From a virus, in the IMG/VR virus record IMGVR_UViG_3300021963_000038, positions 1 through 64,000 of that record: DNA of 64,000 nucleotides, one strand, 5' to 3'. The notes beneath the pieces were generated by a model. That model was not told the DNA's origin. It saw nothing but the letters and a program-made list of their open reading frames with translations, and ran no database searches. How positions within the stretch are numbered: the first letter of the stretch is position 1; the number at the start of each line of letters is the position of its first letter. This document shows, piece after piece, positions 35,742 through 61,677 of the stretch. The translations under genes and the position numbers were made by a program.

Positions 35742-37598
35742 ATGTCAACACAAGTTCAATTTAGACGGGGCAATACATCACAGACTAGCACATTCACTGG
35801 TGCTACGGCTGAGATTACTGTTGATACCGATAAGAAAACGATAGTTGTCCATGACGGAACAACTGTTGGTGGTTTTGCTTTAGCTAGAGAAAATTCAAGT
35901 AATACTGCTGGCTCATATGCCAACTCCGCATATGCAACTGCCAACTCTGCCGCTAGTTATGCTAATGCAGCTTTCGCTGTTGCTAATTCAGATACTTCAG
36001 CCGCAAATACTGGTGCTGCCTATGCCAATTCGGCATTTGCTGTATCAAATAGTGCCGCTAGTTATGCAAATAGTGGATTTGCCGTTGCTAACTCATCAGC
36101 AAGTTATGCCAATTCAGGATTCATAACTGCTAATAGTGCTGGTGTATATGCTAATAGTGCGTTTGCTGCGGCTAATGCAGCTACTGCTACCGATGCAACA
36201 CAAAATACTAATATTACAAATGCTGGTACATATGCTAATGCTGGTTTTGCAGTAGCCAATTCAGCATCATCATATGCAAATGCGGCCTTTTTGCAGGCAA
36301 ACACACCAAGCTATACTGCTAATTCAGCTGCTAGTTATGCTAATTCAGCATTTGGTATTGCAAATAATGCCTTTACTTCAAGTAATGGTGCAATTGTTTG
36401 GTCTACTGCCAACTCTGCAGCAAGTTATGCCAATTCAGGATTCATAACTGCTAATTCAGCTGCTAGTTATGCTAATGCAGCTTTTGCTTCAGCAAATTTA
36501 ATTAATGGTGTTGACTTAACACAAAATACCAACATTTCTTCTGCTGCTTCATATGCTAACTCTGCTTTCTTACAAGCAAATACTCCTAGTAATGTATCAA
36601 ATTCAGCCGCAAGTTATGCTAACTCTGCGTTCACTAGAGCTAATAATAGTATCAACGCAAATACTGGTGGCACAATTTCTGGTGATTTAAGTATTACTGG
36701 TAATTTAACTGTAACAGGTTTAACAACTTATACAAATACTACAACTGTATTGATTGCTGATAATATTATCACACTTAATGCAGCTATTAGTCAATCAGGT
36801 CAACCAGCAGTAAATGCTGGTATTGAAATTGACCGTGGCGCACAACCAAATTCTTCATTCTTATGGATTGAAACTTCAGGCAAATGGGCGGCAAACAATG
36901 GTAACAATACAATATTCATTGCAGCTGATTCAGCAGAATCATATGCTAATGCAGCTTTTGCTTCAGCAAATTTAATTAATGGTGTTGACTTAACACAAAA
37001 TACCAATATTACAAATGCAGGCACTTATGCTAACGCAGCTTTCTTACAAGCAAACACTCCATCATATGTTGCAAATAGTGCCGCTAGTTACGCCAATTCT
37101 GGATTTGCGGTAGCGAATAGTGGCAGTTCATATGCTAACTCGGCTTTCTTAGTTGCTAATAATGGTGTTGGTATTGATGTTACACAGAATACCAATATTA
37201 CAAACGCAGGCACTTATGCTAATTCGGGATTTGCTGTTGCTAATTCTGCTGCCATTTATGCTAATTCTGCTTTCTTATCAGCAAATACTCCTAGTAATGT
37301 AGCAAACTCTGCGGCTTTGTATGCTAACTCCGCTTTCGCAGCAGCAAACAATTCATCGTCTGCCGGTTCTTACGGTAACTCTGCATTTGCTGTTGCTAAT
37401 TCATCAGCATCTTATGCAAATAGTGCTTTTGCAAAAGCTAATACAGATTTTACAAATATTTCAATAACGGATGGCACATATGGTAATTCAACATATTATC
37501 CTGTTATTACTGTTTCTGCAAATGGTAGAGTTAATGTTGTAACAACTCAAGTAGTAACTGACCCAAGTGCTATCGCATTTGCCATTGCTTTAGGATAA
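35742..37598 (+). CDS. Longest Ala-Asn-Ser repeat tail fibre
   Basis: A 618-residue protein. The head (TQVQFRRGNTSQTSTFTGAT, EITVDTDKKTIVVHDGTTVG) is the widespread phage fibre N-terminal motif. Most of the rest is the 14-residue repeat with variants such as FLQANTPSYVANSAASYANS and TQNTNITNAGTYANSGFAVA. A central beta domain at about 305-380 (SGDLSITGNLTVTGLTTYTN, LIADNIITLNAAISQSGQPA) matches the equivalent domain in the fibre at 32650. The end TDGTYGNSTYYPVITVSANG matches the fibre at 21008, and the last residues (AIAFAIALG) match the protein at 20114. It ends four bases before gp13. Confidence 0.8.
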   Translation: MSTQVQFRRGNTSQTSTFTGATAEITVDTDKKTIVVHDGTTVGGFALARENSSNTAGSYANSAYATANSAASYANAAFAVANSDTSAANTGAAYANSAFAVSNSAASYANSGFAVANSSASYANSGFITANSAGVYANSAFAAANAATATDATQNTNITNAGTYANAGFAVANSASSYANAAFLQANTPSYTANSAASYANSAFGIANNAFTSSNGAIVWSTANSAASYANSGFITANSAASYANAAFASANLINGVDLTQNTNISSAASYANSAFLQANTPSNVSNSAASYANSAFTRANNSINANTGGTISGDLSITGNLTVTGLTTYTNTTTVLIADNIITLNAAISQSGQPAVNAGIEIDRGAQPNSSFLWIETSGKWAANNGNNTIFIAADSAESYANAAFASANLINGVDLTQNTNITNAGTYANAAFLQANTPSYVANSAASYANSGFAVANSGSSYANSAFLVANNGVGIDVTQNTNITNAGTYANSGFAVANSAAIYANSAFLSANTPSNVANSAALYANSAFAAANNSSSAGSYGNSAFAVANSSASYANSAFAKANTDFTNISITDGTYGNSTYYPVITVSANGRVNVVTTQVVTDPSAIAFAIALG

Positions 37599-37601
37599 AA
37601 T

Positions 37602-38558
37602 ATGTCAAAACCAGCAACAAGAGCACAATTTAAAACTTACTGTTTGAGAGAACTTGGTTTTCCTGTTATCGAAATAAATGTCGATGATGACCAAGTGGAA
37701 GACCGTATTGATGAAGCACTATCATTTTGGAATGACTATCATTTTGATGGTCAACAAAAAATGTATATGAAACATCAAATTACGGCAGAAGATATTAACC
37801 GCCGTTGGATTTATTGTCCTGATGCCGTATCTTTTGTAACTGGTATATTTCCATTTGACCAATCAAACGCATCTATCAATATGTTTGATTTGCGTTATCA
37901 ATTGCGTTTGCATGACCTTTATGACTTCACATCGGTATCGTATGTGTCATATGAAATTACCATGCAACACATTCGTACATTAAATTTATTGTTCTCTGGT
38001 ACACCACAATTTAGATTTAATCGCCATCAAAATAAAGTATTTCTTGATATTGATTGGACAAGAGATGTTCTTATTGGTCAATATGTAATTGTTGAATGTT
38101 ATCGAAAACTTGTACCAGATACAGTAACAATATCTGGCAAAATTACATATACGGCCAATTCAAATACCATTACAGGTTATGGTACAACATTTGACCAAGA
38201 ACTCATGGAAAATGATTTCATTACTTTAAATGGTGTTGACACAATTCAAATTTCTACAATCAACTCACCAACATCAATTACTGTTCGTGGTCCATTTGCA
38301 AATAGTGCGGCAAATACAACTGCAACAATTGCTGGTAACTCTGATGTTTGGAATGATAGATATCTAAAAAAATATGGTACTGCATTAATTAAAAGACAAT
38401 GGGGAGCTAATCTCAAAAAGTTTGCTGGTATACAAATGCCAGGTGGTGTAACTTTAAATGGTCAACAAATATATGATGAAGCCATTGCTGAGATTAAGGA
38501 ACTAGAAGAAGAAATGTATGTGGTTAATGCCTTGCCAACTGAGATAATGATGGGTTGA
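37602..38558 (+). CDS. 13: Neck protein gp13
   Basis: A 318-residue homologue of T4 gp13 (309), which with gp14 forms the neck that closes the filled head and accepts the tail. Conserved parts are FKTYCLRELGFPVIEINVDD, DDQVEDRIDEALSFWNDYHF near the N-terminus and the C-terminal DRYLKKYGTALIKRQWGANL, KKFAGIQMPGGVTLNGQQIY. Between residues about 180 and 240 lies a beta insert (ISGKITYTANSNTITGYGTT, FDQELMENDFITLNG) of the same type as in the gp7-position protein. Confidence 0.93.
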   Translation: MSKPATRAQFKTYCLRELGFPVIEINVDDDQVEDRIDEALSFWNDYHFDGQQKMYMKHQITAEDINRRWIYCPDAVSFVTGIFPFDQSNASINMFDLRYQLRLHDLYDFTSVSYVSYEITMQHIRTLNLLFSGTPQFRFNRHQNKVFLDIDWTRDVLIGQYVIVECYRKLVPDTVTISGKITYTANSNTITGYGTTFDQELMENDFITLNGVDTIQISTINSPTSITVRGPFANSAANTTATIAGNSDVWNDRYLKKYGTALIKRQWGANLKKFAGIQMPGGVTLNGQQIYDEAIAEIKELEEEMYVVNALPTEIMMG

Positions 38559-38564
38559 TAATGA

Positions 38565-39455
38565 ATGGCAACGAACTTTTACTTTAATCCTTTTCCGATA
38601 AATCAAATTACCAGCGAGCAATTGCTGGTGGAAGACCTCGTCATCGAGGCTATGGGTATTTACGGCATGGATGTTTATTATATGCCAAGGTCATCTGGTG
38701 ATGAAGTAGATTTGCTTTATGGTGAAGATACACTGAAACAATATACATCAGCATACCCACTTGAAATGTATCTTGAAGATGTTACTGGTATGGAAGGTGA
38801 AGGCGATTTTATGTCCAAATTTGGACTTGAGATTCGTGATGAAGTAACTCTGTTAGTTTCTCGCCGTAGATTTTTATATACTGTAAATCAAAGTCGACCA
38901 AATGAAGGTGATTTGGTTTACATTCCAATGTTACAGAATTTCTTTGAGATTACTTTTGTTGAACACGAAAATAATCAAGCAATGTATTACACATTAGGCC
39001 GTGGTCGTGGCGGTAATGTTTATGTGTATGCATTGAAAATGAAACAATGGGTATTCTCTAATGAACTTGTTCTTACAGGTAACGCAGAGATTGATGGTCA
39101 AATTAGAGATGCATACCCAAGAACAAAACTTTCTTTGGCTGCTGGTGGTTCAGGAACATTTGTACCTGACGAAATAGTTTATCAAGGTGCGAATGTTGCA
39201 ACAGCAACAGCTACTGCAACTGTTCATAATTATGTTTCAGGTTCTCAACTATTCATATATCGCACCACAGGAACATTTGCCTCATCTACTCAGGTTAAAG
39301 GCAATACAAGTGGTGCAGTATGGAATGTTAGTGCCACTTCCGACACATCTACAATGGATAATGCATTTGAAGATGTTATTGATAATAATCGTATTGAAAC
39401 TGAAGCCGATGCTGTTATTGACTTCACAGAACATAACCCATTTGGTGAAGCATAA
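38565..39455 (+). CDS. 14: Neck protein gp14
   Basis: A 296-residue homologue of T4 gp14 (256). The start (MATNFYFNPFPINQITSEQL, LVEDLVIEAMGIYGMDVYYM) and the block GLEIRDEVTLLVSRRRFLYT are diagnostic. Residues about 190-260 hold a beta insert (GSGTFVPDEIVYQGANVATA, then VKGNTSGAVWNVS) that explains the extra length and also occurs, in outline, in gp8 and gp15. The end (ADAVIDFTEHNPFGEA) is typical. The gp15 start overlaps its stop (TAATG). Confidence 0.93.
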   Translation: MATNFYFNPFPINQITSEQLLVEDLVIEAMGIYGMDVYYMPRSSGDEVDLLYGEDTLKQYTSAYPLEMYLEDVTGMEGEGDFMSKFGLEIRDEVTLLVSRRRFLYTVNQSRPNEGDLVYIPMLQNFFEITFVEHENNQAMYYTLGRGRGGNVYVYALKMKQWVFSNELVLTGNAEIDGQIRDAYPRTKLSLAAGGSGTFVPDEIVYQGANVATATATATVHNYVSGSQLFIYRTTGTFASSTQVKGNTSGAVWNVSATSDTSTMDNAFEDVIDNNRIETEADAVIDFTEHNPFGEA

Positions 39456-40459
39456 TGTTAGGTAATGCACATTTCTATAATCGTACCATTCGCAAAATTG
39501 TTGTTGCGTTTGGTTCTATGTTTAATGATATTCTTTTGACTCGTTATTCAAAAGACGGACTTACTGCACATGAAATAACCAAAGTGCCATTAAACTATGG
39601 ACCAAAAGAAAAATATTTGGTGCGTATTAATTCTGACCCAACATTAACAAAATCAATAGCCACAACCGTACCTCGTATGAGTTTTAACTTAGACGGTATG
39701 GCATACGACACAACCAGAAAACAACAAACAACATTACAGAATTTTGGGTTTAGTTCAGGAACATTTAAAACTCAATATGTTCCTATTCCATACAATTTTG
39801 ATTTTAGTTTGTCAATCTATGTTCGCAACACAGAAGATGGTACACAAATCTTAGAACAGATATTGCCATTCTTCACACCAGATTTTACGGTCACCATGGA
39901 TTTTATTGCTGACATGGACCAAGTTTACGATATGCCTGTGCTTCTGAATTCAGTAACACCTGAAATTGATTATGAGGGTGAATTGATGAACACAAGATTG
40001 ATTATTTGGAATCTTTCATTTACCGCAAAAGCATACATTTGGCCGCCAGTTAAAACACCTTCTGCGGGCAAATTAATTACACAAGCTAATGTCAACATAT
40101 ATACCGATTCAACGAATCTTGATTCACAGAAAGTTTATGTTAACTTCAATACTGGAACTGGTGTATATACAACAGGTGAAAATATAACTGTTGAAACTCG
40201 TGGAGTTACAGGTAAAGTTTTATACTTTAGTAACACATCAACTGGTGTTCTTGTCTTAACAGATTTGAATAAGAAGATTCAAGCTAACGATAAAATAACT
40301 GGTGTTTATTCAAACTCAACATTTACTGTTACCCGTATTGATACTTCTCCAACAAAAGCTGTTGCAATCGTTGTAACGCCTAATCCGCCTACTGCCAACG
40401 GAAATGGTCCGTATGGTTTTGAAGAAACATTTACAGATTGGCCACAAACTTTAATATGA
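39455..40459 (+). CDS. 15: Tail sheath stabiliser gp15 (tail terminator)
   Basis: A 334-residue homologue of T4 gp15 (272), the hexameric ring that ends the tail and joins it to the neck. Diagnostic parts are FYNRTIRKIVVAFGSMFNDI, KVPLNYGPKEKYLVRINSDP, TVPRMSFNLDGMAYD and the WNLSFTAKAYIWPPVK strand. The C-terminal 100 residues contain an added beta domain (NTGTGVYTTGENITVETRGV, TGKVLYFSNTSTGVLVL) not found in T4. The ATGA overlap with gp16 couples their translation. Confidence 0.92.
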   Translation: MLGNAHFYNRTIRKIVVAFGSMFNDILLTRYSKDGLTAHEITKVPLNYGPKEKYLVRINSDPTLTKSIATTVPRMSFNLDGMAYDTTRKQQTTLQNFGFSSGTFKTQYVPIPYNFDFSLSIYVRNTEDGTQILEQILPFFTPDFTVTMDFIADMDQVYDMPVLLNSVTPEIDYEGELMNTRLIIWNLSFTAKAYIWPPVKTPSAGKLITQANVNIYTDSTNLDSQKVYVNFNTGTGVYTTGENITVETRGVTGKVLYFSNTSTGVLVLTDLNKKIQANDKITGVYSNSTFTVTRIDTSPTKAVAIVVTPNPPTANGNGPYGFEETFTDWPQTLI

Positions 40460-40872
40460 GCAAGACAGATAAAAAATTATCAGAAATATTTGATGTTGAC
40501 CCAATTTCAAATGAAGTTGAGGTGGTAACACATACAGAAATTGTACCAATTCAATCTGAAGATGTAGTTGAAACAGATACCGATTATGCTCGTAAAAATA
40601 TCAGAAACTTAATTGATAAAGGTAATGTTGCAGTAGACAATCTGTTACAAGTTTCAAAAGAATCGGAACATCCAAGAGCATATGAAGTTGTTGCTGGTCT
40701 TATGAAAACAATGGCTGACTTAAATAAAGATTTGCTTGAACTACAAAAACGCAAAAAAGATTTGCAACCGCAACTAGATAGTGTATCTAATCGTGGAAGT
40801 ATTACAGTAGAGAAAGCAGTATTTGTTGGTTCAACGGCAGAATTACTTAAACAAATTAGAGATAATAAATAG
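40456..40872 (+). CDS. 16: Small terminase subunit gp16
   Basis: A 138-residue protein (T4 gp16 has 164). I chose the ATG that overlaps the gp15 stop; a TTG six codons upstream is less likely. The acidic N-terminus is followed by two helices (DTDYARKNIRNLIDKGNVAV, DNLLQVSKESEHPRAYEVVA) and a coiled-coil-like KTMADLNKDLLELQKRKKDL, matching the central oligomerisation region of gp16. gp16 forms a ring that recognises DNA and stimulates the gp17 motor. The end (VFVGSTAELLKQIRDNK) is a conserved family element likely to contact gp17. Confidence 0.9.
   Translation: MSKTDKKLSEIFDVDPISNEVEVVTHTEIVPIQSEDVVETDTDYARKNIRNLIDKGNVAVDNLLQVSKESEHPRAYEVVAGLMKTMADLNKDLLELQKRKKDLQPQLDSVSNRGSITVEKAVFVGSTAELLKQIRDNK
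40864..40871 (+). promoter_or_regulatory. T4-type late promoter box
   Basis: AATAAATA overlaps the gp16 stop and ends seven bases before the ATG of the Dps-like gene. It would allow dps and gp17 to be transcribed separately from gp13-gp16. Confidence 0.5.
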
Positions 40873-40878
40873 GTTACT

Positions 40879-41316
40879 ATGGAAACATTAATTCAACAAC
40901 TAAAAGTAATTTTAGGTACAAACTTTGCGTTGTATCTAAAGAGTCATAACTATCATTGGAATATTGAAGGTTCAAATTTTCCACAATATCATTTATTTCT
41001 TGATGGTTTTTATAATGATGTTTGGGCTCAAACAGATGATATCGCTGAACATATTCGCCGTTTAGATGTTTATGCACCTGGTTCTATGCAAAGATTTTTA
41101 GAATTGTCAGATATTGAAGAAGCAGTTGATTCTATTCCATCTGCAATTATTATGATGCAACATTTAAAAGAAGATAATGACCGTTTTATTGTTCACATTC
41201 GTGCAGGTATTGTTGCAGCTAATCAAGCAGATGAACCAGCTATTTCTAATTTTTTACAAGACCTTCTTGGTGCTCATCAGAAAAAAGCGTGGATGTTGCG
41301 TAGTATTATAAAATAA
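40879..41316 (+). CDS. Dps-like ferritin (DNA-protection protein)
   Basis: A 145-residue protein with the Dps/ferritin signature. SHNYHWNIEGSNFPQYHLFL is followed by DGFYNDVWAQTDDIAEHIRR. The expected inter-subunit ferroxidase ligands are present: His26, His38, Asp42, Asp53 and Glu57, in Dps spacing. The C-terminal helix (FLQDLLGAHQKKAWMLRSI) also fits the family. Dps forms 12-subunit cages that oxidise and store iron and may bind DNA. There is no long basic N-terminal tail, so DNA binding is uncertain. The gene sits between the two terminase genes with its own late box, so it is expressed late, with packaging. That position has no T4 counterpart. Confidence 0.85.
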   Translation: METLIQQLKVILGTNFALYLKSHNYHWNIEGSNFPQYHLFLDGFYNDVWAQTDDIAEHIRRLDVYAPGSMQRFLELSDIEEAVDSIPSAIIMMQHLKEDNDRFIVHIRAGIVAANQADEPAISNFLQDLLGAHQKKAWMLRSIIK

Positions 41317-41322
41317 TATAAG

Positions 41323-43005
41323 ATGAATAATCATGGGTATTTGGGAAATAGTTCATTAAAAAGAACTGAGGTTCAACTTTCATACACAGAAGAACAAGTT
41401 TTAGAACTTGCCAAATGTGCGGAAGACCCTACCTATTTCATTGATAACTACTGTTACATAGTAACACTAGACCACGGTTTACAACCTTTTAAATTATACG
41501 ATTGCCAAAAAGAAAAGATAAAAGTTATACATGATAATCGAAAAGTTATTATTATGGAAGGCCGTCAACAAGGTAAAACTTCCACATCTGCCGCCTACAT
41601 TCTTTGGTACACATTATTTCAAGATTCAAAAACTGTCGCAATTCTTGCCAATAAGGCAACTACAGCTCGTGAAATTATTTCACGATATCAATTGATGTAT
41701 GAAAATCTTCCTTTGTGGATGCAACAAGGTATTAAAACTTGGAACAAAGGTGATGTGGAATTAGAAAACGGTTCAATCGTTTTTACTGCTGCAACAACTG
41801 GTGCAGGTATTCGTGGTAAATCTGTAAACTTATTGTATATTGATGAAGCCGCAATTATTCCTAATACGATTGCAGAAGCGTTTTTTACTGCTGTCTATCC
41901 TGTTATTTCTGCTGGTCAAACAACTAAGATTCTTATCACATCCACTCCACTAGGTTACAATCACTTTTGGAAGTTTTGGAATGATGCAATGAATAAAAAC
42001 AATGACTTTGTGCCATTGTTTATTCCATACAACAGAATTCCAGGTCGTGATGAGAAGTGGGCACTAGAACAGAAACGCCAACTTGGTGAGTTGAAATACA
42101 ACCAAGAGGTTCTGTGTAAGTTCCTTGGTTCATCTTTGACTTTGATTGATGCTGCAACGATTGAGTATATGTCAACATTACCGACTGTATACTCTAAAGA
42201 TGGTTTAGATTTGTATGAGTATCCAGTCAAAGCCGAAAGAGATGATGAAGAAGTTTTGGTCAAGAAACCACACACTTATGTTATCGTTGCAGATACGGCT
42301 CAAGGTGTTGGCGGAGACTATTCAGCTTTTGTAATTATTGATATCGCAGAAGTACCCTATAAGTTAGTGGGTAAATACAGAGATAATAAGATTGCACCTA
42401 TGCTATATCCTTCGGTTATACATAAGGTAGCGAAAGATTTTAACAATGCATATGTTTTACTTGAGGTTAACACAAGTGAACAGGTTGCATATATTTTACA
42501 ATCAGAATTGGAATATGAAAATATTCTATATGTCACCAAAACTGGTAAAGGTCAGAAAGTAACTGGTGGTTTTGGTGGTGCGGGTAGAACAAGTTTTGGC
42601 GTTGTTACTGACAAAAGAGTAAAACGCATTGGTTGTTTTACGTTTAAATCATTAATTGAAGAAAAGAAATTACTGATTCCTGATGCCGATGTGATATCGG
42701 AACTATCGACTTTTATTGAATATCGTGGTTCATATCAAGCGGATGATGGTTATCACGATGATTTGGTGATGCCTTTAGTCTTGTTTAGTTGGTTGACAAC
42801 TAATCCTTACTTCAAAGACTTAAACGATGTTAATATTCGTGAGGCAATGTATCAAGAGAGAATTAAACAAATAGAAGAAGATGTTATACCCTTTGGTTTT
42901 TTGAGTGATGGCCAAGATATGGAATATGAGGTGGATAGCGGAGATGCTTGGACAAAAGAAGATTCCAAGCCTTTACCACCAGGTTACTTATCTTCAAGTT
43001 TGTAA
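41323..43005 (+). CDS. 17: Large terminase subunit gp17
   Basis: A 560-residue homologue of T4 gp17 (610), the ATP-driven packaging motor and headful nuclease. The ATPase domain has the Walker A-like GRQQGKTS at residues 80-87 and Walker B LLYIDEAA near 171-177 (Asp174, Glu175). A coupling motif follows (TKILITSTPLG). The nuclease domain starts with VIVADTAQGVGGDYSAF (Asp324), and DDGYHDDLVM near 474-483 supplies further acidic ligands. It lies six bases after the Dps-like gene. The C-terminus (PLPPGYLSSSL) is a typical ending. Confidence 0.95.
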   Translation: MNNHGYLGNSSLKRTEVQLSYTEEQVLELAKCAEDPTYFIDNYCYIVTLDHGLQPFKLYDCQKEKIKVIHDNRKVIIMEGRQQGKTSTSAAYILWYTLFQDSKTVAILANKATTAREIISRYQLMYENLPLWMQQGIKTWNKGDVELENGSIVFTAATTGAGIRGKSVNLLYIDEAAIIPNTIAEAFFTAVYPVISAGQTTKILITSTPLGYNHFWKFWNDAMNKNNDFVPLFIPYNRIPGRDEKWALEQKRQLGELKYNQEVLCKFLGSSLTLIDAATIEYMSTLPTVYSKDGLDLYEYPVKAERDDEEVLVKKPHTYVIVADTAQGVGGDYSAFVIIDIAEVPYKLVGKYRDNKIAPMLYPSVIHKVAKDFNNAYVLLEVNTSEQVAYILQSELEYENILYVTKTGKGQKVTGGFGGAGRTSFGVVTDKRVKRIGCFTFKSLIEEKKLLIPDADVISELSTFIEYRGSYQADDGYHDDLVMPLVLFSWLTTNPYFKDLNDVNIREAMYQERIKQIEEDVIPFGFLSDGQDMEYEVDSGDAWTKEDSKPLPPGYLSSSL

Positions 43006-43056: not shown

Positions 43057-44961
43057 ATGGCATTTCAGCTATCACCTGGGGTAAATGTATCAGAAATTGA
43101 CCTGACTACAATCGTACCCTCAGTCGCTACTTCAATTGGCGGCATCGCTGGAAATTTTAACTGGGGTCCAGTTAGTGAAGTTGTTACCGTATCAGACGAG
43201 GTTCGCCTTGCCTCTGCATTTGGTAAACCTGACAATACAAATTATGAATACTGGTTCTCAGCAGCAAATTTCTTAGCTTATTCAAATAACCTAAAAGTTG
43301 TTCGTGCCGCAAACACGACTTCCACTCTTAACGCTACAGCCAATGGCTCTGGTGTTTTGATTAAAAACTCTGACGATTATATTGCTAATCGTGAAACTGC
43401 ATCTAATACTACTTACGGACCTTTTGGTGCTCGTTGTGCTGGTGCTTTAGGTAACAGTTTGCGTATTTCAATTTGCCCATCAGCACAAGCATATTCTGCC
43501 AACTTAACTGTTACAGATACTCTAAGATGTAATGCTGTTACAAGTGGTGACACCACAATCAATGTTAATGGTAATGCTAATGCTGCCGCTAACATTTTTG
43601 CTGGAGATTTAATCTCTGTTGATGGTGGAACAACATATATTCGTGTTGCCTCTGTTAACGCAACTGCAATTATTACTGCAACTGCACCAGGTACTGTCAA
43701 TGTTGGTACAGCAATTCTCCGTAGATGGCAATATGCTGACCAGTTTGGTGTTGCACCAGGCACATCATCATATACTTCTGGTTTAGGTGGTTCTGGTGAT
43801 GAAATGCACGTTATTGTTGTTGACGAAGATGGTCAATTCTCAAATGGTGTTGCTAATACAGTTCTTGAAAAATATGCGTTTGTATCTAAAGCATCTGATG
43901 CACAGAACAATGATGGTTCTTCAAACTACTATAAGACAATTATCAATAACCAATCAAGATATGTTTGGTGGTTAACACATCAACCAGGTGGTTCTAATTG
44001 GGGAACAACTGCTGTTTCTAAAACATTTACCAACATTAATACACCATTTTCTGCATCAATGAGTGCGGGTGCTGATGGTACAATTGGTAACTCAGAAATT
44101 ATTACTGCATACGGATTCTTTGCAAATGCCGATGTTGTGGATGTTTCATTGTTAATTTCTGGTCCAGGTAATGCAACTGTTGCAGCTGACTTAATTTCTA
44201 AAGTAGAAAGTCGTAAAGATACTGTTCTGTTTTTATCACCAACAAAATCTTCTGTTGTAAACAATGCTGGTTCTGAAGCAACATCTATTCTTTCATTCCG
44301 TTCAGGATTGACAAGTTCTTCATATGCATTTATGGATTCTGGTTACAAATATCAATACGACCGCTATAACGATGTGTACCGTTGGGTACCGTTGAATGGT
44401 GATATTGCTGGTATTTGTGCTCGTACAGACCAAGAACGTGACCCATGGTTCTCTCCAGGTGGTTTAAATCGTGGTATCGTTAAGAATTCAATTAAACTAG
44501 CATACAACCCAACTAAAGCAGAACGTGATAACTTGTATGTACAAGGTGTTAATCCTGTTGTTACATTTGCTGGTGAAGGTACAATTCTATTTGGTGACAA
44601 AACATTGTTAAGCAAACCATCTGTGTTTGACCGTGTCAATGTTCGCCGTCTATTCATTGTACTTGAAAAGACGATTGCTCGTGCTGCTCGTAGTTCATTG
44701 TTTGAATTTAACGACCAGTTTACTCGTGCTCAATTCGTTAACTTAGTTGAACCATTCTTGCGTGATGTTCAAGGTCGCCGTGGTCTAACTGATTACCGTG
44801 TTGTTTGCGATGAGTCTAACAACACAGCCAATGTAATTGATGCTAACCAATTTGTTGGTGACATTTACATTAAACCAGCCCGTTCAGTCAACTTCATTCA
44901 ACTTAACTTTGTGGCAGTTCGCACAGGCGTTACATTTGAAGAAATTGTTGGTCGGTTCTAA
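43057..44961 (+). CDS. 18: Tail sheath protein gp18
   Basis: A 634-residue homologue of T4 gp18 (659). Diagnostic parts are LSPGVNVSEIDLTTIVPSVA, TSIGGIAGNFNWGPVSEVVT at the N-terminus and the conserved C-terminal sheath fold: DRVNVRRLFIVLEKTIARAA, FEFNDQFTRAQFVNLVEPFL and KPARSVNFIQLNFVAVRTGV. A beta segment at about 155-215 (GDTTINVNGNANAAANIFAG) lies in the surface-exposed region that varies among phages. gp18 forms the contractile sheath around gp19. The strong ribosome site (AAGGAG) suits a major virion protein. Confidence 0.96.
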   Translation: MAFQLSPGVNVSEIDLTTIVPSVATSIGGIAGNFNWGPVSEVVTVSDEVRLASAFGKPDNTNYEYWFSAANFLAYSNNLKVVRAANTTSTLNATANGSGVLIKNSDDYIANRETASNTTYGPFGARCAGALGNSLRISICPSAQAYSANLTVTDTLRCNAVTSGDTTINVNGNANAAANIFAGDLISVDGGTTYIRVASVNATAIITATAPGTVNVGTAILRRWQYADQFGVAPGTSSYTSGLGGSGDEMHVIVVDEDGQFSNGVANTVLEKYAFVSKASDAQNNDGSSNYYKTIINNQSRYVWWLTHQPGGSNWGTTAVSKTFTNINTPFSASMSAGADGTIGNSEIITAYGFFANADVVDVSLLISGPGNATVAADLISKVESRKDTVLFLSPTKSSVVNNAGSEATSILSFRSGLTSSSYAFMDSGYKYQYDRYNDVYRWVPLNGDIAGICARTDQERDPWFSPGGLNRGIVKNSIKLAYNPTKAERDNLYVQGVNPVVTFAGEGTILFGDKTLLSKPSVFDRVNVRRLFIVLEKTIARAARSSLFEFNDQFTRAQFVNLVEPFLRDVQGRRGLTDYRVVCDESNNTANVIDANQFVGDIYIKPARSVNFIQLNFVAVRTGVTFEEIVGRF

Positions 44962-44968
44962 TAAATAG
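44960..44968 (+). promoter_or_regulatory. T4-type late promoter box
   Basis: AATAAATAG begins in the gp18 stop region, 17 bases before the gp19 ATG, and is followed by an AGGAGA ribosome site. Confidence 0.6.
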
Positions 44969-44985
44969 AGAGATAGGAGAAAAAA

Positions 44986-45531
44986 ATGGCATTTAATGTA
45001 AACGAATTCCGCTCTCAGATGGTAGGAGACGGTGCTCGCCCAAATTTATTTGAGGTGAGTATGCCGTTTCCTGGCTTTTCACAGCCTGGAGATGCACAGA
45101 GAAAATTAACTTTCATGTGTAAAACGGCTCAACTACCCGGTTCAACCATTGGTGTTGTACCTGTTCAATACTTTGGCCGTGAATTAAAATTTGCGGGTAA
45201 TAGAACATTCACAGATTGGACAATTACAGTTATCAATGATGAAGATTTTGTGATTCGCAATGCTTTCGAGCGTTGGATGAATGGCATCAATAGTCATAGT
45301 CTTAATATTCGTAACCCATTAGCATCAGCACCAGGTGGTTACACCGTTGATGCAGATGTAACTCAATTTGGCAAACAAGGTGATACACTAAAGAAATATC
45401 GTTTTCTTGGTTTATTTCCTCAAGATATTGCACCAATTGATGTTGATTGGGGTTCTAACGATACTATTGAAGAATTCACCATCACGCTTTCCTACCAATG
45501 GTGGGAAGCAACAGCAGACCAAGTGGCTTGA
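44986..45531 (+). CDS. 19: Tail tube protein gp19
   Basis: A 181-residue homologue of T4 gp19 (163). It has NEFRSQMVGDGARPNLFEVS at the N-terminus, CKTAQLPGSTIGVVPVQYFG, RTFTDWTITVINDEDFVIRN and ERWMNGINSH, the hallmark of gp19-type tubes, and ends with the IEEFTITLSYQWWE strand. It polymerises on gp48/gp54 inside the sheath. It is followed directly by an intrinsic terminator, which separates the tail genes from the portal and prohead genes. Confidence 0.96.
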   Translation: MAFNVNEFRSQMVGDGARPNLFEVSMPFPGFSQPGDAQRKLTFMCKTAQLPGSTIGVVPVQYFGRELKFAGNRTFTDWTITVINDEDFVIRNAFERWMNGINSHSLNIRNPLASAPGGYTVDADVTQFGKQGDTLKKYRFLGLFPQDIAPIDVDWGSNDTIEEFTITLSYQWWEATADQVA

Positions 45532-45533
45532 TG

Positions 45534-45563
45534 AAAGGGGGGTCCTACGACCTCCCTTTTTAC
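45534..45563 (+). terminator. Intrinsic terminator after gp19
   Basis: An 11-bp stem with one G-T wobble (AAAGGGGGGTC / GACCTCCCTTT) has a CTAC loop and a T run. It begins two bases after the gp19 stop and lies before gp20, for which no late box was seen nearby. Confidence 0.9.
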
Positions 45564-45583
45564 TTTTTTAGGATGAATTTTTA

Positions 45584-47218
45584 ATGGCAATAAAACTATT
45601 CGGTTTCACACTCGGTAAAAAGGACATTGTTCAGGTTGAAAAACCTGAGCAAGCTTCTTTTGCGCTTCCGACAGAAGCAATCGATGATGGTGCAGTCACC
45701 ATCACTCAAAATGCTCATTACGGTACCTATGTTGACTTAGATGGTGCTGTTCGTAATGAGATTGAACTTATTACCCGTTATCGTGAAATGTCAAATCACC
45801 CTGAGTGTGATATGGCAATTGATGAAATTGTTAATGAAGCAATTAGTCATACAGAAAAAGGTGAAGTTTTAAAAATTGTTTTAGACAATTTAAAACAACC
45901 TGAAACAATTAAGAAAAAAATTATTGAAGAATTCAACAACATTCAAAAGATGTTGAACTTCAGTAATCTTGCCGATGATTTATTCAAGCGTTGGTACATT
46001 GATGGTCGTATCTATTATCATGTCATCGTCAATGAAAAAGACCCAAAACAAGGCATTCAAGAATTACGATATATTGACCCACGCAAGATTCGTAAAGTGC
46101 GTGAGGTTCAAAAAGAACGTGACCCAAAAACTGGTGCCAACATTATTAAATCGTTGGCTGAATACTATGTTTACAATGACCGTGGTACAACGACACAAAC
46201 ATTTAGTGCAAACGTAACACAAGGTTTGCGTATTGCACCTGAAGCAATCATTAATGTAAACTCAGGTTTGATGGATGCAAAGAATGTGTTCGTCATTTCT
46301 TATCTACACAAAGCAATTAAGGCACTTAATCAATTACGAATGATTGAAGATGCGGTAGTTATCTATCGTATATCAAGAGCACCTGAACGCCGCATATTCT
46401 ATATTGATGTTGGTAATTTACCAAAAGGTAAAGCTGAACAATATATCCGTTCTATTATGATTCAGTATCGTAACAAATTAGTTTATGATGCAAGCACTGG
46501 CGAGATTAGAGATGAGCGTAAACATATGTCTATGCTTGAAGATTTCTGGTTACCACGGCGTGAAGGTGGTAAAGGTACAGAGATTACTACACTACCAGGC
46601 GGACAAAACCTTGGTGAAATGGAAGATGTGAAATACTTCCAAAAGAAATTATTAAATGCATTAAATGTACCTGTATCTCGTTTAGAACCAAATGATGGTG
46701 GAGTTATGGGTCTTGGTCGCACAACTGAAGTTACCCGTGATGAAGTTAAGTTTGCTAAGTTTGTTAACAGACTTCGTAATAAGTTTTCACAGATTTTTGA
46801 CCATGCATTGAGAATTCAACTTGTACTAAAAGGTGTTTGTACCAGTGAAGAATGGGAAGAATTCAGAGAAGAAATCTATTATGATTTCATCAAAGATAAT
46901 AACTTTACCGAAATGCGTGATGCAGAATTGCTCCGTGAAAGAGTAAATACAGCAACAATGTTAGACCCATTCATTGGTCGTTATTATTCAGCAGCATGGG
47001 TTCGTAAGAATGTGTTGCAAATGACTGATGAAGAAATTGAACAAATGGAAAAAGAAATTGAAGAAGAAGGTCCAGTTGTACAACCAGGTGATGAACAAGC
47101 ACAACAAGGGCAAGTTCCACCAGAAGATAATACCATGGAAAGAACACCTTCTGAATCTGCAACACCAGAATTAGATGCAGAGGTAGAGAAGTCTGCACTT
47201 AATATAAATAGGAAATAA
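45584..47218 (+). CDS. 20: Portal protein gp20
   Basis: A 544-residue homologue of T4 gp20 (524), the dodecameric portal vertex. Diagnostic parts are YREMSNHPECDMAIDEIVNE, LRYIDPRKIRKVREVQKERD, VIYRISRAPERRIFYIDVGN, LEDFWLPRREGGKGTEITTL and LNVPVSRLEPN. The acidic C-terminal tail (about 480-530, EEIEQMEKEIEEEGPVVQPG) is variable in the family. It starts 21 bases after the terminator, preceded by an AGGATG ribosome site, so it may depend on readthrough or on an unrecognised promoter. Its last codons carry the late box for gp67. Confidence 0.96.
   Translation: MAIKLFGFTLGKKDIVQVEKPEQASFALPTEAIDDGAVTITQNAHYGTYVDLDGAVRNEIELITRYREMSNHPECDMAIDEIVNEAISHTEKGEVLKIVLDNLKQPETIKKKIIEEFNNIQKMLNFSNLADDLFKRWYIDGRIYYHVIVNEKDPKQGIQELRYIDPRKIRKVREVQKERDPKTGANIIKSLAEYYVYNDRGTTTQTFSANVTQGLRIAPEAIINVNSGLMDAKNVFVISYLHKAIKALNQLRMIEDAVVIYRISRAPERRIFYIDVGNLPKGKAEQYIRSIMIQYRNKLVYDASTGEIRDERKHMSMLEDFWLPRREGGKGTEITTLPGGQNLGEMEDVKYFQKKLLNALNVPVSRLEPNDGGVMGLGRTTEVTRDEVKFAKFVNRLRNKFSQIFDHALRIQLVLKGVCTSEEWEEFREEIYYDFIKDNNFTEMRDAELLRERVNTATMLDPFIGRYYSAAWVRKNVLQMTDEEIEQMEKEIEEEGPVVQPGDEQAQQGQVPPEDNTMERTPSESATPELDAEVEKSALNINRK
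47203..47210 (+). promoter_or_regulatory. T4-type late promoter box
   Basis: TATAAATA, a full consensus match inside the last codons of gp20, ends seven bases before the gp67 ATG. Confidence 0.65.
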
Positions 47219-52485: not shown

Positions 52486-53031
52486 ATGAGCGCACTCAAT
52501 AGAAACCCTAAAAATCCAAATTACTTACATCCTAATAAGTTTCAATTAAACTTTTCTAGGTTGCCAAACATACAGTATTTTTGTCAGACTGTAACTGTTC
52601 CTGGTATTTCTTTATCTGAGATTCCACAAAATACTCCTTTTGTAGACTTGTATAAACCAGGTGAAAAAGCAATTTACGATTTGTTGAATGTTACTTTTTT
52701 GGTTGATGAAGCTTTAAAGTCTTGGTTAGAAGTACACGATTGGATTCGTGGTATGACTTTTCCTACTGACTTTAAAGAATACCAGAATTTAGGTTTACTA
52801 AGTAAAACTGCCGGCATAAGACAATCTGTGGGATTGGCACCACAATATTCTGATGCAACACTTACCATTTTATCATCGGCAAATAATCCAACATTTACAT
52901 TTAAATTTTATGATGTATTCCCAACATCATTATCTACCTTTGTCATGTCCACTACTGATAGTCCAGACACGGCAATTACAGCTGATGCAACTTTCAGATA
53001 TTCCTATTTTGATGTTGACAAAGTAAATTAA
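52486..53031 (+). CDS. Tail-tube-like virion protein
   Basis: A 181-residue protein, the same length as gp19 here. It contains NPNYLHPNKFQLNFSRLPNI, FCQTVTVPGISLSEIPQNTP, WLEVHDWIRGMTFPTDFKEY and ends with FRYSYFDVDKVN. The layout (N-terminal strand, CQxVxVPG loop, W..HDW helix, C-terminal F.Y...D strand) follows the tube fold of gp19, gp48 and gp54. I recall this family downstream of gp23 in T4-like phages of aquatic bacteria. It may replace gp54 (tube initiator), which was not otherwise found. That is inference. Confidence 0.7.
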   Translation: MSALNRNPKNPNYLHPNKFQLNFSRLPNIQYFCQTVTVPGISLSEIPQNTPFVDLYKPGEKAIYDLLNVTFLVDEALKSWLEVHDWIRGMTFPTDFKEYQNLGLLSKTAGIRQSVGLAPQYSDATLTILSSANNPTFTFKFYDVFPTSLSTFVMSTTDSPDTAITADATFRYSYFDVDKVN

Positions 53032-59581: not shown

Positions 59582-59773
59582 ATGGGTGATTTTAAAAAAT
59601 TACATGAGTTTACCGATGGTCGAAATCGAACTGGTCAGGTATTCTATACAGGCAAAGATAACTACATGGTCTTGCTTTTTGAAGCGGACTTAGATTATAA
59701 TGAGATGAGAATCTTCACTAATGAAGAAGAATCTAAAAAATGTGCAATGAATTGGGTACCAATATATGAGTGA
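59582..59773 (+). CDS. Small unknown protein
   Basis: A 63-residue protein (HEFTDGRNRTGQVFYTGKDN, YMVLLFEADLDYNEMRIFTN, then EEESKKCAMNWVPIYE). The pattern YxVxLFExDxDxxExRxFxxxExAxxxAxxWV looks like a small conserved phage protein family with an alpha/beta fold and no known role. It overlaps the deformylase gene by eight bases, so it is probably real and co-translated. Confidence 0.65.
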   Translation: MGDFKKLHEFTDGRNRTGQVFYTGKDNYMVLLFEADLDYNEMRIFTNEEESKKCAMNWVPIYE

Positions 59774-60356
59774 AATTTTAACCATCAATACAGAAGCGGG
59801 TCTATTCAAAGAAGAAACGATTGAACCGTTGCCGTTATATAATGAACATCACCCGATGTTACAACAACCTATTCCAGAATATGACTTGAGAACTCTACCT
59901 AATCCTGTTATGACTAAATTAGTCAAACGATTAAAGATGACGATGAAGATGTATAGTGGTTTGGGACTATCAGCAAATCAATGTGGTGTATTCGAAAGAG
60001 TATTTGTGATTGGCAATGAAGATATGATTATTCCGTGTATTAATCCCAAAGTAATCAGAGTATCTGAAAAGACAGACAAAAACAACGAAGGGTGTTTATC
60101 GTTTCCTGGTTTGTTTTTGAAAATTGAAAGACCCATATCTGTTGATGTGGAATTTCATAATGAAAACGGCAAGTTGGTTAATACAACATTTGAAGGTCTT
60201 ACTGCAAGATGTTTTCTGCATGAATTAGACCACATGAATGGTATTCGTATGATTGAACACACAAAGCCATTAGCACTACAAATGGCAAGACAAAAACAAC
60301 AGAAGTTAATTAAAAAAGTGAAAAGAACTCAGAAAAATAATGGCATACTCATTTGA
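59766..60356 (+). CDS. def: Peptide deformylase
   Basis: A 196-residue peptide deformylase, the enzyme that removes the formyl group from new proteins. All three motifs are present: GLSANQ at 67-72 (motif 1, GxGxAAxQ type), EGCLS at 108-112 with the metal ligand Cys110, and HELDHMNG at 152-159 with ligands His152 and His156 and catalytic Glu153. Phage deformylases are known in T4-like phages of aquatic bacteria and usually lack the C-terminal extension; here a basic tail (KQQKLIKKVKRTQKNN) is present. It may support rapid processing of phage proteins. It overlaps the next gene by 17 bases. Confidence 0.93.
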   Translation: MSEILTINTEAGLFKEETIEPLPLYNEHHPMLQQPIPEYDLRTLPNPVMTKLVKRLKMTMKMYSGLGLSANQCGVFERVFVIGNEDMIIPCINPKVIRVSEKTDKNNEGCLSFPGLFLKIERPISVDVEFHNENGKLVNTTFEGLTARCFLHELDHMNGIRMIEHTKPLALQMARQKQQKLIKKVKRTQKNNGILI

Positions 60357-61677
60357 CCCAAAAGATGATGTAGAAGAACAATGGCGTAAATGGCAAGAAG
60401 CCAATCCGCCAGATTCTTTTATGGATATTAATGAAGATGAGTTGCGTGAGCAAACCATCAAAGACCTTACCTATGTGTCGGCTATGGATGTCCGTGAATA
60501 TACACTATATCAGAAATGGTGTGAAATCAAAGACAAGTATCCCACATTTGTGAACAATACATTATTCGGTGAAGAAGTACAATTGGTTGACCCAAAACAA
60601 CAAGTGTTGGTAGATGAAGTTAAGAATAACATTTGGTTGCCTGAAAGTCCTGATGACTATTTGAATCTTGAACCTGTATTGATTTACACCGATGATTCTG
60701 GTTCTGTATCACGCAAAGGTGTTGATGGTACAGTTGTTGAAGATAAAATTAAACGTAGTGATTTACCTGAAAGATGGAACACGGCACGAAACTTTATCTC
60801 GACAATGAAGAACAATAGTAACATTGGTCGCAATCTTAACTTTCTTGTTGCAGACAATAAGACAGGTAAGTATCTTGGTGTTATTTGTATATCATCAGAC
60901 TTTCTTGATTTAACACCAAGAGATAATGCGATTGGTTGGCCTCGTGAGTTAAAGACACAAGGTGGTATGATTAATCATACTGCAATTGGTTCTACAATTG
61001 TTCCGTTTCAACCACTTGGTTACAACTATGTTGGTGGTAAGTTACTTGCATTGCTTTGCCTATCAGATGAAGTGCAAAGATTGTGGAAGAAACAGTATGG
61101 TGATACCTTGATTGGTGTAACAACAACATCATTGTATGGTAAAACTAAAGCAGGTGGTCTATCACAATATGATAACCTTGACCATTGGAATCCTATGGGC
61201 TTCTCCTCTGGTTCTGTATCGTTTGAACCAAATAGAGATACACGTTATAAAATTCGTGAATGGTTGAAAGCAAATCATACCCGTAAATATTTCGAATGGT
61301 ATGTTGCAAAGAAAGCAAGTGGTCAACCACATAAACGTGACCATAAGAATCGTTCTTTAAATTTCACTTACTCTAAGATGAGTATACCAAAAGAATTGAT
61401 TAAGGCAGAACATCATCGTGGCATTTATTTCAGTCCACTATACAACAACTCGTTTGAGTTCTTGCGTGGTGATATCAAAGAAACAGAATTGGTTAAATCG
61501 TTTGATACCAGTTATGAATCTTTGACAAAGATATGGAAAGAAAAACACGCTAAAGGTCGTATCGGTTTTCTAAAGAAGAAAGACAAGGTATCAACCGAAA
61601 CTTTGTTCTATGATGATTTGATATATCTTACATGGGAAGAAACAAAGGCAAAGTATCTTGGCCAAGTCGGCAGATAA
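60340..61677 (+). CDS. DUF4338-like protein (DruA-like fold)
   Basis: A 445-residue protein. The core at residues about 160-270 (RNLNFLVADNKTGKYLGVIC, LTPRDNAIGWP, NYVGGKLLALLCLSDEVQRL, LIGVTTTSLYGKTKAG) resembles DUF4338, known from the DruA protein of Druantia anti-phage systems and from some transposase-like proteins. The match is by pattern recall, not alignment. The C-terminal half is basic (KASGQPHKRDHKNRSL, WKEKHAKGRIGFLKKK), suggesting nucleic acid binding. It is the last gene of the recombination block. Function in the phage is unknown; DNA processing is possible. Confidence 0.55.
   Translation: MAYSFDPKDDVEEQWRKWQEANPPDSFMDINEDELREQTIKDLTYVSAMDVREYTLYQKWCEIKDKYPTFVNNTLFGEEVQLVDPKQQVLVDEVKNNIWLPESPDDYLNLEPVLIYTDDSGSVSRKGVDGTVVEDKIKRSDLPERWNTARNFISTMKNNSNIGRNLNFLVADNKTGKYLGVICISSDFLDLTPRDNAIGWPRELKTQGGMINHTAIGSTIVPFQPLGYNYVGGKLLALLCLSDEVQRLWKKQYGDTLIGVTTTSLYGKTKAGGLSQYDNLDHWNPMGFSSGSVSFEPNRDTRYKIREWLKANHTRKYFEWYVAKKASGQPHKRDHKNRSLNFTYSKMSIPKELIKAEHHRGIYFSPLYNNSFEFLRGDIKETELVKSFDTSYESLTKIWKEKHAKGRIGFLKKKDKVSTETLFYDDLIYLTWEETKAKYLGQVGR

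Follow-up and report, generated by a model that had tools for sequence, protein, structure and literature searches.

Dps proteins encoded by phages are already known from gut phages (PMC8008677) and from podophages (PMC7881722; PMC4281155; these papers, and the others cited below for background, are represented here by excerpts of their text). As a rule, phage dps genes are catalogued as isolated stress genes. The dps gene considered here lies at 40879..41316 (+ strand) of a 64,000-nucleotide (nt) stretch of viral DNA, hereafter the window, which comprises positions 1 to 64,000 of IMG/VR record IMGVR_UViG_3300021963_000038, a virus contig of 135,900 bases. It starts with ATG, encodes 145 amino acids (aa), is the single dps copy in the record and stands between gp16 and gp17, the genes for the small and the large terminase of a T4-like late gene block. 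Its product is an ordinary Dps, or mini-ferritin, without a DNA-binding tail. What is new is the placement of dps between the terminase genes throughout a clade: no published account of it was found in the open-licence literature, and Dps is mentioned neither in PMC8557907, by term search, nor in the paper on phage Melnitz (PMC9004378). Since hundreds of environmental T4-like contigs have dps at the same point of their head and packaging operon, a role of phage Dps in handling iron or peroxide becomes testable.

Family, fold and iron site of the phage Dps

The initial annotation, made from the sequence alone, had called the protein a Dps-type ferritin, and its assignment to Dps is upheld by sequence profiles as well as by comparison of folds. 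It matches Pfam Ferritin (PF00210) at 2.6e-22 (79.7 bits; cut-off 24.5) and PHROG 3636 at 1.3e-33; the match to the NCBIfam Dps model (1.7e-12) stays under that model's curated cut-off, as do those to the NCBIfam Dps equivalogs. A sequence search of the PDB returned 63 distinct sequences at E<=1e-3, the 60 listed being nearly all Dps or Dps-scaffold constructs, and the best match was Pseudomonas aeruginosa Dps (8ff9; 1.7e-23, or 1.3e-38 with the family profile). An AlphaFold2 monomer model built from 54 rows, with divergent and bacterial sequences included, has a predicted local distance difference test (pLDDT) score of 96.1 and a predicted template-modelling (pTM) score of 0.91; an earlier model, based on 47 close homologues, scored poorly (pLDDT 65) and was discarded. 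The modelled helices span residues 2-28, 34-61, 70-76, 89-116 and 120-144, the third of them being the short BC-loop helix between helices B and C that is a Dps trait (PMC11150526). Foldseek superimposes the model on 8ff9 with a template-modelling (TM) score of 0.94, and VIA-align gives Z 23.4 to 20.8 over the 50 entries listed, again nearly all Dps.

Relatives were gathered in six scans of viral contigs, of which the best 80 matches each were kept (the contigs of the second scan being mostly those of the first); the second and the sixth scan each had at least about 600 matches, so that the relatives are more numerous than this. The first five scans yielded 159 distinct full-length Dps sequences, the window Dps included, and the other members of this set are 56 to 92% identical to it. 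Dps fragments cut at contig ends were left out, as was a 658-aa open reading frame (ORF) at L331:1294-3270, in which dps is in frame with a gp17 that lacks about its first 19 residues; this fusion was seen in one contig and is either a natural deletion or an assembly artefact. Residues of helix D and of the pore region are kept throughout the set (E119, N124, Q127 and W138, each in 159/159), so that the clear loss of dodecamer contacts, which the initial annotation had named as a possible refutation, is not seen.

The same annotation had noted the absence of a long DNA-binding tail and had considered an iron role likelier on that account, which the model and the composition bear out. With helix A starting at residue 2 and helix D ending at residue 144, the modelled protein has no tails, and hence none of the Lys/Arg-rich N- or C-terminal kind found in the DNA-binding Dps of Escherichia coli. 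The window Dps is acidic (isoelectric point 5.4), and the net charge is -11 to -4 in all 159 relatives. DNA coating in the E. coli style is thus unlikely, and a role in iron or peroxide handling fits better, because the protein is both tail-less and acidic.

Dps builds its ferroxidase centre from residues of two subunits (two His, one Asp and one Glu, plus an acidic residue), as distinct from the DpsL/bacterioferritin type of centre, whose ligands lie inside each subunit. The inter-subunit set is complete in the window Dps, where His26 (codon 40954..40956), His38 (40990..40992), Asp42 (41002..41004), Asp53 (41035..41037) and Glu57 (41047..41049; all on the + strand) align with the Dps ferroxidase positions. 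In 8ff9 both irons are bound by H37, H49, D64 and E68 only (PMC10002758), and it is with these residues that H26, H38, D53 and E57 align; all four direct ligands are invariant (159/159). So is W27 (159/159), which corresponds to a conserved Trp near Fe1 (PMC10002758). In the sixth, more distant scan (80 loci), H26, W27, H38 and D53 are present in all 74 readable rows, and E57 in all 75 readable ones.

The fifth canonical residue behaves differently. Residue 42, whose acidic counterpart in canonical Dps acts through a water molecule, and which is Asn in Nostoc Dps4 (PMC6675082), is acidic in only 23/159 relatives: Asp in 19, Glu in 4, Asn in 44, Gly in 84, Ala in 4 and Lys in 4. In the sixth scan it is Gly in 39 of the 74 rows, Glu in 13, Asn in 6, Asp in 5, Gln in 4, Ala in 4, Leu in 2 and Met in 1, with Gly in five further rows, while among 17 bacterial or plasmid Dps compared it is Glu in 16 and Met in one. 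As judged from these alignments, the four direct ligands are strictly constrained and the fifth residue is not. Does this leave the clade with a working iron site? The centre should be usable without an acidic residue 42, because the same four residues alone bind the irons in 8ff9. The idea of a degenerate ferroxidase, and hence of no iron function, which the loss of residue 42 might prompt, was accordingly rejected, given the four-residue site of 8ff9 and the Asn of Nostoc Dps4.

On the ancestral state at residue 42, two trees with different outgroups disagree. With all outgroups included and the tree drawn at its midpoint, the members with Gly42 are deepest; when ten distant or long-branched rows are left out (eight phage sequences, Jiulongibacter and Agarilytica), the root falls among members with Asp42 and fewer losses are needed, with at least four changes between acidic and non-acidic residues on this second tree. 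The natural series of D, E, N, G, A and K at residue 42, set against four invariant ligands, offers a ready set for probing the fifth Dps residue.

Placement and retention of dps in a T4-like clade

That dps sits in the packaging operon, as the initial annotation had it, is confirmed by its neighbours. Upstream, at a distance of 6 nt, ends the small-terminase gene gp16 (40456..40872, + strand; PF11053 at 4e-12, phrog_445 at 4.8e-35), whose ATG start is inferred, the mechanical ORF beginning at a TTG at 40438; downstream, again after 6 nt, begins the large-terminase gene gp17 (41323..43005, + strand; PF03237 at 2.8e-18, phrog_5989 at 8.2e-57). On either side profile matches identify gp13-, gp14- and gp15-like neck and sheath-stabiliser genes (37602..40459, + strand) and the genes for the gp18 sheath, gp19 tube and gp20 portal (43057..47218, + strand), so that the block follows the late T4 order: gp13-, gp14- and gp15-like genes, gp16, dps, gp17, gp18, gp19, gp20, head protease, scaffold and major head protein.

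The arrangement extends far beyond the window, as a survey of T4-like genomes for dps between genes 16 and 17, suggested at the outset, made clear. In the three scans selected by Dps, gp16 lies at most 60 nt upstream in 230/230 testable loci and gp17 at most 250 nt downstream in 219/223; in each of the remaining four, dps is followed by an extra ORF or by an intein-like break, and one further locus carries the dps-gp17 fusion. To avoid choosing by Dps, a set of 80 loci was selected by the portal gene instead. Both terminase genes are present in 23 of these, and dps stands between them in 22; in the exception, contig L204, dps is absent and gp16 and gp17 are 15 nt apart. The place is held even in 24 distant T4-like loci, with gp16 directly upstream in 20/24 and gp17 directly downstream in 22/24, at Dps identities of about 44-48% (five rows being without a value). 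The gene is retained across the clade under purifying selection, the median ratio of non-synonymous to synonymous substitution rates (dN/dS) being 0.16 over 1675 pairs. Moreover, it evolves like a resident gene, because its mean identity to the window in 20 portal-selected loci (69%) is comparable with that of gp16 (57%), gp17 (60%) and gp20 (79%).

Several observations concern the junction of dps with gp17. In otherwise syntenic contigs the latter is of one of two types, the first about 45% and the second 70-97% identical to that of the window, which amounts to a large-terminase replacement adjoining a retained dps. By eye, ORFs between dps and gp17 at L320:3005-3450 and L403:4430-5020 resemble GIY-YIG homing endonucleases, gp17 at L043:6430-7930 is seemingly split by an intein-like insertion at the Walker A motif, and a long ORF between the two genes, found in one contig (L339:2580-3640), looks lectin-like.

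What does the conserved position tell about function? The nearest named relatives of the large terminase, at no more than 49% identity, are those of Methylophilales phage Melnitz, Pelagibacter phage Mosig and cyanophages, and in these kin the gap between gp16 and gp17 is a slot for other cargo: an F5/8 type C domain gene in Melnitz, a 70-aa ORF in Mosig and five ORFs in S-CREM1. Within a clade, such a constant gene order is most readily explained by one old insertion that has since been kept, and by itself it does not show a packaging function. The packaging-linked role proposed in the initial annotation was therefore not borne out and can only be inferred, because named kin carry other cargo in the slot.

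Nor could the arrival of the gene be dated by comparison with host Dps, as had been hoped. No bacterial Dps above 37% identity was among the 10 confirmed matches of a scan of 84,980 species genomes, which worked by short exact peptides and misses distant matches; in 403 plasmid records the best match by listed rank reached 39%, and one two-piece match 44% over 80%. The dps gene bears no foreign signature, because its GC content (0.317) resembles that of gp16 (0.321). A recent transfer from a host could not be shown, no close bacterial relative having been found in these searches.

The initial annotation had also pointed to a late box. The element AATAAATA (40864..40871, + strand) ends 7 nt before the ATG of dps, and we take its putative late-promoter role from the likeness to T4 late promoters. 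In the window ATAAATA is rarer than expected (15 found vs 27 in shuffles). On the + strand of the whole record, however, 16/18 sites fall in the 60 nt ahead of a + gene start, a zone that makes up about 8% of the record, and this placement argues for a real promoter-like motif class. The dps box itself overlaps the last codons and the stop of gp16, and is kept in 34/45 distinct upstream sequences. It is plausible as a dps late promoter, but late expression of dps follows more safely from the place of the gene than from the box.

Elsewhere in the record, a 618-aa protein made of 'ANSAASYANSAF'-type repeats is encoded upstream of gp13 (35742-37598), and a second tail-tube-like gene (phrog_45) follows the major head protein at 52486-53031, besides gp19 at 44986-45531. 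Further on stand a phage peptide deformylase (59766-60356; PF01327, 7.8e-35), an enzyme that usually uses iron, and a match to the Druantia protein DruA (60340-61677; PF14236, 1.3e-19). At 98361-100508 of the record (L236:16361-18508) a 715-aa protein has a zeta-toxin/kinase P-loop domain (PF06414, 1.4e-13).

Probable function of the phage Dps and alternatives

We consider it probable, if not strongly so, that the protein is a late, soluble cage which clears iron and peroxide and guards DNA without binding it. Made late in infection together with terminase and structural proteins, Dps would form a 12-mer in the cytoplasm of the host and bind Fe(II) where two subunits pair, in di-iron sites to which one subunit contributes H26 and H38 and the other D53 and E57. 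It would oxidise the Fe(II) with peroxide or oxygen and store the ferric iron in its cavity. The cell would thereby be cleared of both Fenton reactants during the packaging of replicated phage DNA, and the DNA would be protected, presumably to the benefit of the phage, with no Dps bound to it. This proposal builds on the fold, the ligands, the acidity and lack of tails, the operon-like spacing and the clade-wide retention under purifying selection, and from these it predicts the 12-mer, the ferroxidase activity and the late timing. It draws on the fact that P. aeruginosa Dps shields its cells from H2O2 (PMC10002758), and the class I ribonucleotide reductase, both subunits of which are encoded in the record, also counts in its favour. 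The persistence of dps at its place in hundreds of related viruses hints that control of iron or peroxide matters during particle filling.

Other observations weigh against it. Residue 42 is Gly, Asn, Ala or Lys in 136/159 relatives, so that most members of the clade may have a weaker or a changed activity; the initial annotation, which had counted all five ferroxidase ligands, was right for the window copy, but D42 cannot carry its argument for the family. N124 (159/159) stands, by alignment, at the pore residue matching the iron-binding D134 of 8ff9. Finally, the dps box may have arisen by chance, because it overlaps the coding sequence of gp16.

How much, then, should be read into the location? 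It is conceivable that the gap between the two terminase genes simply tolerates cargo, and that dps arrived there once and was kept for a general stress benefit, its position saying nothing about packaging. The different genes of Melnitz, Mosig and S-CREM1 at this spot, the clade contig with gp16 and gp17 only 15 nt apart, and the further inserts or intein-like breaks after dps in 4/223 testable loci all suit this explanation, whereas the fact that dps stays in place beside two forms of gp17, and down to 44-48% Dps identity, speaks against it. We rate it a serious contender that falls somewhat short of probable; it concerns location only and is compatible with the iron- and peroxide-clearing cage. 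Alternatively, the cage may be a virion protein, placed in or on the head or neck during packaging and carried to the next host with stored iron or early protection against peroxide. The position of dps in the head and packaging block would agree with this, and there are precedents in other phages: Privateer Dps was found by mass spectrometry in virions purified on caesium chloride (PMC7881722), and a Dps-domain protein of SU10 was represented by six peptides at 35.8% coverage (PMC4281155). However, Privateer Dps is a distant relative (27% identical to the window Dps) from a phage group in which the gene adjoins nucleotide-metabolism genes, and the SU10 protein may have co-purified, since polymerase and terminase peptides occur in the same list (PMC4281155). 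Among viral predicted structures (BFVD), Dps folds also occur within longer proteins of uncultured Caudovirales that UniProt names prohead protease (A0A6J7WPK9, A0A6J7XDU5 and A0A6J7WIS1); they favour a Dps in the particle and, as far as these names go, might tie Dps directly to head maturation.

On balance we find a virion-borne Dps unlikely. Were it to hold, it would be a concrete case of iron carried by phage particles. For the 'Ferrojan' idea in Vi01-like phages, a dependence on iron uptake was not seen in the single host examined (PMC10892097). More doubtful still is the fuller version, in which a large environmental T4-like clade has made the mini-ferritin part of its packaging module, such that a cage built with the terminase, in most members with an iron centre pared down to the four direct ligands, enters or joins the particle and brings the next host iron or protection from peroxide. 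Direct action on DNA, by metal-dependent nicking that aids host DNA breakdown or the work of the terminase, appears highly improbable. The 12-mer of P. aeruginosa Dps, the closest solved relative, does cut plasmid DNA in vitro when divalent metals are present (PMC10002758), but the physiological relevance of this cleavage is unproven, and the phage protein is strongly acidic and devoid of tails.

Comparison with described Dps systems

Among phages, the Dps proteins of Grimontviridae and phiEco32-like podophages (7-11, SE131, GAP52, Privateer and SU10) share the ligands, which are kept in the four compared, and those of Privateer and SU10 were both detected by mass spectrometry of phage preparations (PMC7881722; PMC4281155). 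They differ from the window Dps in sequence (about 26-31% identity) and in setting, their genes lying by nrdD or thyX, and not by the terminase, in the four examined. Across the loci L240-L244 of phages outside the window clade, Dps adjoins nrdD or thyX, or lies near thyX, a recurring link with nucleotide metabolism. The freshwater cyanophages S-SRM01 and S-EIV1 also encode an aquatic phage Dps with Gly at residue 42, as in most of the window clade, although at 30-32% identity and outside the terminase pair. For the DPS of gut phages (Gratiaviridae and 36 other phage genomes) an aid to the host against oxidative damage has been proposed (PMC8008677); these belong to different phage families, and a terminase linkage is not mentioned in the excerpts. 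A 'DNA-binding ferritin-like protein' in a viral metatranscriptome of Lake Baikal was assigned to Pithovirus (PMC9611531) and may or may not come from the window clade.

Of the bacterial proteins, P. aeruginosa Dps (PA0962; 8ff9-8ffd) has in common with the phage protein the fold (TM 0.94), the four direct ligands and the nearby Trp, at 32% identity by structural alignment; it differs in having Glu at the position of residue 42 and a short N-terminal coil, M1-G8 (PMC10002758), whereas the phage Dps starts in helix A and is encoded in a terminase operon. The tail-less dodecamers Dlp-1 and Dlp-2 of Bacillus anthracis and NAP of Helicobacter pylori resemble it in length (142-146 aa) and fold, and Dlp-1 and Dlp-2 also in the ferroxidase residues, as seen in alignments; they are the products of bacterial genes, and Dlp-1 and Dlp-2 have Glu at 42. 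Nostoc Dps4, with its His-type centre, is the counterpart at that residue, an iron-oxidising Dps that has Asn in place of an acidic residue at 42; there, however, His replaces the Asp matching D53 (PMC6675082), an Asp that the phage clade keeps in 159/159.
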